Assembly: GCA_020832905.1 (NCBI GenBank)
Contig: JAJHRG010000003.1
Location: forward strand, 1 to 64,000
Length of the DNA stretch: 64,000 nt
Source of the DNA: Thermoproteota archaeon
GTDB taxonomy: Archaea; Thermoproteota; Methanomethylicia; Methanomethylicales; Methanomethylicaceae
Reading direction: 5' to 3'
Below the pieces are notes generated by a model that saw nothing but the letters and a program-made list of their open reading frames with translations, was not told the origin of the DNA and did no database searches. Both the position numbers and the translations under genes were made by a program. Within the stretch, counting starts at the first letter, position 1, and every line of letters starts with the position of its first letter. Shown piece after piece: positions 3,580-7,778 of this stretch.

Positions 3580-3978
3580 CTAAGGTAGAACTTTAGCACC
3601 TAGCTCTAATGCAACATTCTTCTGTTTTTCATCAAGAGTTAATAGCGACATATTCTTACTTATTGCAAGAGCAATATATAGTGCATCGTAGATTGATATA
3701 CCTTTTTCCAATGCTATGTTAAATGCCTTATCAATGTATTTTGTCTCAGGTTCTATTATGATATTTTTCTCTAAATATATATTAAATAACTTAATGACAT
3801 TATATGCAGACTTATGATCTAATATTTTTAATAAATAAGTTGCTTTCCAAACAGCATTATAGAACTCTTTAATAATATGATCTATTGATATTGTTTCTTT
3901 CATATATGGTTTTAAACTTTCCCAACACTTTTCTTTAAGAAAGAAAGCTATTACAGCTGAAGCATCAACTACTATCAC
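3580..3978 (-). CDS. vapC: VapC-type PIN-domain toxin
   Basis: This 132-residue protein has the PIN-domain layout of VapC ribonucleases: an N-terminal VVDASAVIAFF strand with the first acidic residue (Asp5), a mid-protein acidic helix, and ISIYDALYIALA followed by LLTLDEKQ carrying the C-terminal acids. VapC toxins cut tRNA or rRNA when freed from their antitoxin. The gene overlaps the end of the antitoxin gene by 14 bases and starts inside it, as in most VapBC operons. Length is typical. The specific RNA target cannot be read from the sequence. The pair sits in an accessory-looking stretch. Confidence 0.9.
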   Translation of the reverse strand: MIVVDASAVIAFFLKEKCWESLKPYMKETISIDHIIKEFYNAVWKATYLLKILDHKSAYNVIKLFNIYLEKNIIIEPETKYIDKAFNIALEKGISIYDALYIALAISKNMSLLTLDEKQKNVALELGAKVLP

Positions 3979-4204
3979 GATCTTCCCTCACAGATTTAAC
4001 TGAAAAGCCCTCTGGAATACTCCAATTAGCTTTTTTCAACTCCTCAAGAATTCTTTCAAAATTCTTCTCAGCTTCTAATTCTTTTATTTTCAATTCTATA
4101 AATTTTCGAACTTCCTCAGACCAATTAATTTTATCCTTATACTTTTCCATTTTTTCCTTTAATTCTTTTTTTATTTTTACACTAAAAACACTCATTTTTA
4201 CCAT
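3965..4204 (-). CDS. vapB: VapB-type antitoxin
   Basis: This small, charged 79-residue protein lies directly upstream of, and overlaps, the VapC gene. The N-terminal strand (VFSVKIKKEL) followed by helices and a WSEEVRKFIE segment fits the ribbon-helix-helix antitoxins paired with archaeal VapC. The tail rich in Glu/Lys and ending in an acidic stretch would wrap the toxin. Antitoxins of this kind repress their own operon by binding the promoter as dimers. Two start codons are possible (residue 1 or Met4); the first is kept. The family name rests mainly on context and size. Confidence 0.78.
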   Translation of the reverse strand: MVKMSVFSVKIKKELKEKMEKYKDKINWSEEVRKFIELKIKELEAEKNFERILEELKKANWSIPEGFSVKSVREDRDSS

Positions 4205-6128: not shown

Positions 6129-6527
6129 ATGATTATTATAGATAAAAATAAATTTGAAAAAATTATTAATGAATGTAAAGAAGTAAATATTGAAAAAATA
6201 TATATTGCTATAGGAATTTTTAAAGAAAATTTAATAAAAATTATTGAAATAATTGAATGTAAAAATATTGCAAAAAATCCAATAATTGAATTTAAAGCAG
6301 ATCCACAATGCTTATATAAAATAATTAAATATGCTGAAGAAAAGAAATTAGAAATAGTAGCATTAATACATAGTCATCCAGTATTACCATATCCAAGTAC
6401 TATTGATATTAAATGTATGAAATTATGGAGAATTCCATGGATTATAATAGATTATAAAAGTGGAAATACAAAAGCTTGGATTCTTAAAAATGAAGAAATT
6501 ATAGAAATACCTATAAAACTAGAATAA
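6129..6527 (+). CDS. JAMM/MPN+ metalloprotease, probable Ubl-processing enzyme
   Basis: The 132-residue protein has the JAMM zinc site: His81-Ser-His83, then Ser90 and Asp93, with Glu22 at the position of the catalytic glutamate. JAMM enzymes cut the bond after the C-terminal Gly-Gly of ubiquitin-like proteins. In the usual motif the second histidine and the aspartate are 11 positions apart, while here they are 10, so the loop is one residue shorter. The gene starts directly after the ttuA-like stop codon. A role in maturing or recycling the ubiquitin-like sulfur carrier of the thiolase is inferred from this coupling. Confidence 0.82.
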   Translation: MIIIDKNKFEKIINECKEVNIEKIYIAIGIFKENLIKIIEIIECKNIAKNPIIEFKADPQCLYKIIKYAEEKKLEIVALIHSHPVLPYPSTIDIKCMKLWRIPWIIIDYKSGNTKAWILKNEEIIEIPIKLE

Positions 6528-6560: not shown

Positions 6561-6617
6561 GATTGATGAAGAGTTACTCCCCTGATTTAGAGATGATGAT
6601 AACATACCCTACTGAAT
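6561..6617 (+). ncRNA. C/D box sRNA with two 12-nt guides
   Basis: A complete C-D'-C'-D series is present: C core TGATGA (6564-6569), guide 6570-6581, D' CTGA (6582-6585), six-nucleotide spacer, C' ATGATGA (6593-6599), guide 6600-6611, D CTGA (6612-6615). Both guides are exactly 12 nt, the spacing set by archaeal L7Ae-Nop5-fibrillarin complexes. The reverse complement of the first guide starts GGGAGTAACT, which matches from memory the conserved archaeal/eukaryotic helix 69 sequence of 23S rRNA. The fifth-nucleotide rule then puts 2'-O-methylation on the G equivalent to E. coli G1910. I could not assign the second guide. It lies between convergent genes. Confidence 0.85.
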
Positions 6618-6701: not shown

Positions 6702-7778
6702 TTATTGTAAATTCTCTAATACTAATTGAGATAATGTTATTATTCTTGGTTCTTTAGATATACCAATCATATGATGCATACAAAATACACAACCAACAGC
6801 AATTTCAGAATTTTTTATTTTTGCTTCATTAATTAGCATTTCAGCTAATTTATTTGCAATTTCAGGATATAATGGTTTTACTCCTGCAGGTGCTCCACAA
6901 CATAATGCATCCCATTTATTTTTATCATATTCAACTAATTCTGCAATTCTTTTTATAATATTTCTTGGTTCTTCAATAATATTATTTCTTCTAACAAGAG
7001 GACATGGATCTTTGTATATTATTCTTTTACTAGTTTTTTTAATATTTAATTTATTTAAATTTTCATTTATTATTTGTGAAATATGAATTACTTCATATGA
7101 TGGTTTTCTAAATAATTTTGGATATACATTTTTTAATACATCATGACATGAAGGACATTCTGTAATAACATATTCTGCTCCAATAGATTCAAAAACTAAT
7201 GTATTTTTTTCTGCTAATTTTTTTGCTTCTTCTAATAATCCAGTATCTATAAGAAATAATCCACAACACCATTCCTTTCCATTTAATGTAGTAAAATCAA
7301 TTCCTATTTTCATTAATAATTTAATTGATGCCATAGCAGTTTCAGGATATTTTATTGCAGACCAACAACCAGGGAAATAAACATATTTTGCTTTTTCTTT
7401 TGGTTTAAATTCTTTGGGAATATATTCTAACCATTTTTCTCTTGAAGCTCCCATTGGTGAGCCTAAATTTATTATTGCTTGAGTAATAGTATTATATTTT
7501 TCAGGAACTTTTTTCATTTTTCTTAGTTTTGCTCTTGCTTCTTGAATAATAGTAGAAATAGGAATTTCTAATGGACAATATTTATGACATTGATCACATC
7601 TTGTACATAGAAATATTGTTTTTAATTCTTCTTCATTTAATTCTTCATTTTTAAAAAGTTTTTGTGCTGCTTTTATTTTTTCCATTGTTCCATATTTTAT
7701 ATTACCTGTTGCTATAAAGAATGGACAGATTTCAGAACAATTTCCACATAAATTACATTGAAAAGCAATTTCACTCAT
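6702..7778 (-). CDS. HdrD/GlpC-like Fe-S protein with two CCG domains
   Basis: The protein (358 residues from the chosen start) opens with two ferredoxin-type four-cysteine clusters (CNLCGNCSEICP and CTRCDQCHKYCP). It continues with two cysteine-rich CCG domains (EWCCG with CPSC, and LCCGAPAG with CVFC). This is the plan of heterodisulfide reductase subunit D and related electron-transfer subunits such as GlpC and LutA. No HdrE-like cytochrome, dehydrogenase or HdrA gene is adjacent, so the redox partner is unknown. A longer reading frame adds 16 residues (start at 7826) and would overlap the MazG gene; I prefer the ATG at 7778, just before the first cluster. Confidence 0.85.
   Translation of the reverse strand: MSEIAFQCNLCGNCSEICPFFIATGNIKYGTMEKIKAAQKLFKNEELNEEELKTIFLCTRCDQCHKYCPLEIPISTIIQEARAKLRKMKKVPEKYNTITQAIINLGSPMGASREKWLEYIPKEFKPKEKAKYVYFPGCWSAIKYPETAMASIKLLMKIGIDFTTLNGKEWCCGLFLIDTGLLEEAKKLAEKNTLVFESIGAEYVITECPSCHDVLKNVYPKLFRKPSYEVIHISQIINENLNKLNIKKTSKRIIYKDPCPLVRRNNIIEEPRNIIKRIAELVEYDKNKWDALCCGAPAGVKPLYPEIANKLAEMLINEAKIKNSEIAVGCVFCMHHMIGISKEPRIITLSQLVLENLQ

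Follow-up and report, generated by a model that had tools for sequence, protein, structure and literature searches.

The window analysed here, a stretch of 64,000 nucleotides from a Thermoproteota archaeon, contains a 175-nt gap between two convergent genes, a JAB/JAMM ORF with its stop at 6527 and an Fe-S/CCG ORF with its stop at 6702. Within this gap, the + strand reads gatTGATGA-AGAGTTACTCCC-CTGA-tttagaga-TGATGA-TAACATACCCTA-CTGAat, which corresponds to the C/D box architecture TGATGA-12-CTGA-8-TGATGA-12-CTGA at 6564-6615 (Table 1). Guide 1, AGAGTTACTCCC, occupies exactly 12 nt between C and D', guide 2, TAACATACCCTA, exactly 12 nt between C' and D, and D' is separated from C' by an 8-nt spacer. 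Direct reading of the sequence thus upholds the initial annotation, which had called four boxes in order with two 12-nt guides. The sole deviation in the boxes is the nucleotide that precedes the first TGATGA, U rather than R (UUGAUGA vs RUGAUGA), and a terminal stem of 2 bp, A6562-T6617 and T6563-A6616, is possible. Elsewhere in the window (3580-4204, - strand), a PIN-domain protein is encoded after a small 79-aa ORF, the ends of the two overlapping, and the pair is arranged like a VapBC toxin-antitoxin module.

Table 1 Features of the candidate C/D box sRNA gene.
Feature	Position	Strand	Basis
C/D box sRNA gene, mature ends inferred	6561..6617	+	Four ordered boxes, 12-nt guides, best Rfam match sR55 (6562-6617)
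C box UGAUGA, preceded by U6563 (UUGAUGA)	6564..6569	+	Sequence; kept in G021, L023:1942
D' guide AGAGUUACUCCC	6570..6581	+	12/12 complementary to own 23S 2079-2090; C6577 opposite G2083 = E. coli G1910; positions 3-12 kept in G021
D' box CUGA	6582..6585	+	Sequence; kept in G021
C' box AUGAUGA	6593..6599	+	Sequence; kept in G021
D guide UAACAUACCCUA	6600..6611	+	Tentative target own 23S G2001 (aligns to E. coli 1813), 9 pairs including one G-U; not kept in G021
D box CUGA	6612..6615	+	Sequence; missing in G021

With D' and C' each allowed one mismatch, both strands of the window still yielded no second four-box match. Sequences of 64 kb simulated in 60 runs of a third-order Markov model with the composition of the window contained a mean of 0 strict and 0.03 relaxed four-box matches. 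The best Rfam match of the region was the archaeal C/D family sR55 (RF01307, 25.2 bits), with an E-value of 1.9e-4 for the local region and 0.056 for the whole window, where it was the only Rfam match at E<=1. The score lies under the gathering score of this family, 35 bits. Archaeal C/D families in Rfam are narrow and guide-specific. The boxes and flanking stem of the element align with sR55 end to end, whereas the guides are unrelated, and the match is one of common architecture and not of the same sRNA. The fold of the element was no better than that of shuffled sequences (z -0.71), as is usual for C/D RNAs. The score under the gathering threshold and the fold would both fit boxes that fell into this order by chance in an AT-rich, untranscribed intergenic spacer; we consider this extremely unlikely, given that none of the 60 simulated windows yielded a strict match and that, as described below, the D' guide matches the organism's own rRNA at 12 of 12 bases and the locus is conserved in G021, another genome of the genus.

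The organism's own 23S rRNA (L001, 1501-4585) reads GGGAGTAACTCT at 2079-2090, the exact Watson-Crick complement of all 12 bases of the D' guide. Counting both strands, perfect complements of the organism's rRNA make up just 50 of the ~128,000 12-mers of the window (about 4 in 10,000), and one of these 50 fills the interval from C to D'. With perfect complementarity so rare, its occurrence precisely where a guide should lie is not attributable to chance. Dennis et al. (2015, PMC4644070) use as their criterion at least nine consecutive Watson-Crick pairs to rRNA spanning N+5, and the D' guide forms 12 of 12. The initial annotation, too, had set nine complementary bases in this 23S as its limit. 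The base fifth upstream of D', C6577, lies opposite G2083 of this 23S, which in an alignment to the K-12 23S falls on E. coli G1910; the N+5 rule and the alignment thus lead to the very Gm site that had been predicted. The helix-69 sequence of the organism, GGGAGUAACUCUGAC, has C, not A, at E. coli position 1916, as does helix 69 in 11 of the 11 family genomes where it was found, and the D' guide has G opposite this C. The matching substitution in the rRNA and the guide therefore extends the pairing to twelve. Hence, the helix-69 target named in the initial annotation stands, while the length of the duplex, given there as ten bases on the strength of the common helix-69 sequence GGGAGUAACUAU with A at this position, is revised upwards.

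G021, the only other genome of the genus that was compared, has an orthologue of the locus, likewise situated downstream of the JAMM gene. The G021 locus reads TTGATGA-AGAGTTACTCAT-CTGA-8-TGATGA, and the C box, the guide, D' and C' are all kept. The guide AGAGTTACTCAT differs at guide positions 1 and 2 only and, set against helix 69 of the window organism, would form 10 Watson-Crick pairs over positions 3-12, with the same methylation site; a search of the G021 genome did not recover its own helix 69. The D box and the second guide are gone from the G021 orthologue. This raises the question of whether the element is decaying or half-functional, the C/D' half alone being of importance and the D half an orphan or on its way to being lost as in G021. 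The intact C, guide 1, D' and C' of the G021 copy would agree with this reading, but the window genome shows no loss among the four boxes or the two 12-nt spacings, and we regard this reading as unlikely. At the same locus of G021 (L023:1934-1990), while the downstream D box and guide 2 are missing, a CTGA lies four bases upstream of the C box. CTGA occurs at 0.24% of window positions, so that one within about ten positions is expected by chance in ~2% of cases. If functional, the G021 copy might be a C/D sRNA gene in circular permutation, with its break within guide 2 and its integrity restored when the RNA circularizes, and the locus an evolving guide gene; this is a speculative reading to which we give little credence.

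The second guide is less easily assigned. Its best rRNA site is 1998-2006 of the organism's own 23S, 82 nt upstream of the helix-69 site, where nine pairs, one of them G-U, would place N+5 at G2001. Against 16S and the recovered tRNAs, nothing above 8 pairs was found. Nine pairs with one G-U would agree only with the relaxed rule for double guides, and, given the loss of guide 2 in G021, G2001 is a tentative target. An alternative to the single-guide reading is that the element is a double-guide C/D sRNA, whose D guide also methylates G2001 and whose two contacts jointly chaperone the folding of the H68-H69 region. The nine contiguous pairs cover N+5 at less than 100 nt from the first site, and an equally good site within +-100 nt of the first was reached by 29 of 3000 shuffled guides (1%). 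About half of archaeal C/D sRNAs are described as double guides with sites within 100 nt, G-U pairs being sometimes accepted (PMC4644070). However, ~28% of shuffled guides reach an equally good site somewhere in the two rRNAs, and the absence of guide 2 and its D box from the G021 orthologue also speaks against this reading. Altogether, we hold a double guide to be somewhat less likely than not.

To return to the D' guide, when 398 genomes of the phylum were scanned for it between a C-type box and CTGA, with 0-4 nt permitted before CTGA, only G226 and G167 joined the window genome and G021, and a reversed control pattern gave no match in the 398 genomes. G226 and G167, which belong to one genus of another family, read TGATGA-GGAGTTACTC(AG/GG)-CTGA, with the identical 12-nt spacing and the same N+5 nucleotide. 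The eight guide bases common to the copies were part of the search pattern by construction, but the spacing and the upstream half were not: the distance from the guide to CTGA is exactly 2 nt in all four genomes, though the pattern permitted 0-4, and a complete C-guide-D' half lies upstream in both G226 and G167 (GTGATGA-13-CTGA-4-TGATGA), which places the helix-69 guide in the D slot. In both, this D half shares sequence with the 5' end of a possible conserved ORF, the product of which begins MRSYSA, and coding constraint may therefore contribute to the conservation of the D half there. One and the same helix-69 bridge site would thus have a D'-slot guide in the window organism's family and, probably, a D-slot guide in the other; if so, selection would seem to act on the site and not on the sRNA. 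With the patterns used, no copy was detected in the other 20 genomes of the window organism's family, and the helix-69 target is identical in those where it was found; the gene is therefore either recent, or lost or too diverged elsewhere. A scan of ~85,000 species genomes with the full 10-base guide and the boxes returned 6 matches, five in bacterial records and one in an archaeon (L007). The archaeal match falls within an ORF resembling ribosomal protein S28e and was rejected as a chance occurrence.

The genome encodes the proteins of a C/D RNP: the genes for fibrillarin (E 3e-99) and Nop5 are neighbours at L025, and L074/L075 specify two proteins of the L7Ae family. A second C/D sRNA, again with four boxes and two guides of 12 nt, is also apparent (L024:1501-1552; G000:C18:3854-3905); its guides have 9-base matches, one with a G-U, near positions 2195 and 2778 of the organism's 23S. 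A strict pattern requiring a purine before the C box found this second sRNA and missed the candidate at 6561-6617. Two further observations concern the rRNAs. The match of the organism's own 16S rRNA (L002) exceeds the model length by ~200 nt; it has an AT-rich insertion close to the 530 loop (~525-650), which could be an intron. In another genome, G003, the 23S rRNA is interrupted directly behind helix 69 by ~750 bp (L020:805-1347; C1 about 522895-523646) carrying a LAGLIDADG endonuclease ORF, probably an rRNA intron.

Taken together, these results indicate that 6561-6617 is very probably the gene for an archaeal C/D box sRNA of ~57 nt, whose D' guide would direct 2'-O-methylation at the residue aligned to E. 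coli G1910. The assignment rests on the box architecture, the exact complementarity, the conservation of the guide half in the genus, the same register in another family and the presence of the protein genes; from these we infer transcription, RNP assembly and the methyl group. In the proposed mechanism, L7Ae would associate first with the C/D and C'/D' motifs, to be followed by Nop5 and fibrillarin. The D' guide would base-pair with helix 69 of the host 23S rRNA, and fibrillarin would then 2'-O-methylate the rRNA nucleotide that faces guide position five upstream of D'. A further contact ~82 nt upstream, made by the D guide, is a weaker possibility. The predicted methyl group would sit just before the helix-69 loop, which forms an intersubunit bridge with 16S helix 44. 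The analysis thereby provides, for an archaeon and from sequence alone, a base-exact and testable prediction of an rRNA modification.

By the sequence tests, the element is an archaeal C/D sRNA, and both this class of RNA and the target region are already known. Dennis et al. (2015, PMC4644070) describe helices 68, 69 and 71 as hotspots of guide-directed methylation in archaea, predicted sites being densely clustered around E. coli A1912. The helix-69 C/D sRNAs of that study share with the element the architecture, guides of ~12 nt, the N+5 rule and the target region, and differ in coming from other organisms. In Haloarcula marismortui, 23S helix 69 is reported to carry Gm1950, equivalent to E. 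coli 1909 (Grosjean et al. 2008, PMC2584109). The same report gives a C/D guide candidate for Gm1950, with homologous sequences in 25 archaeal genomes, and Pyrococcus sR41 is proposed there for the equivalent site. Likened by target position, the Haloarcula guide and sR41 resemble the element in being C/D guides aimed at the same stretch of helix 69, but their target is 1909, one nucleotide 5' of the predicted 1910.
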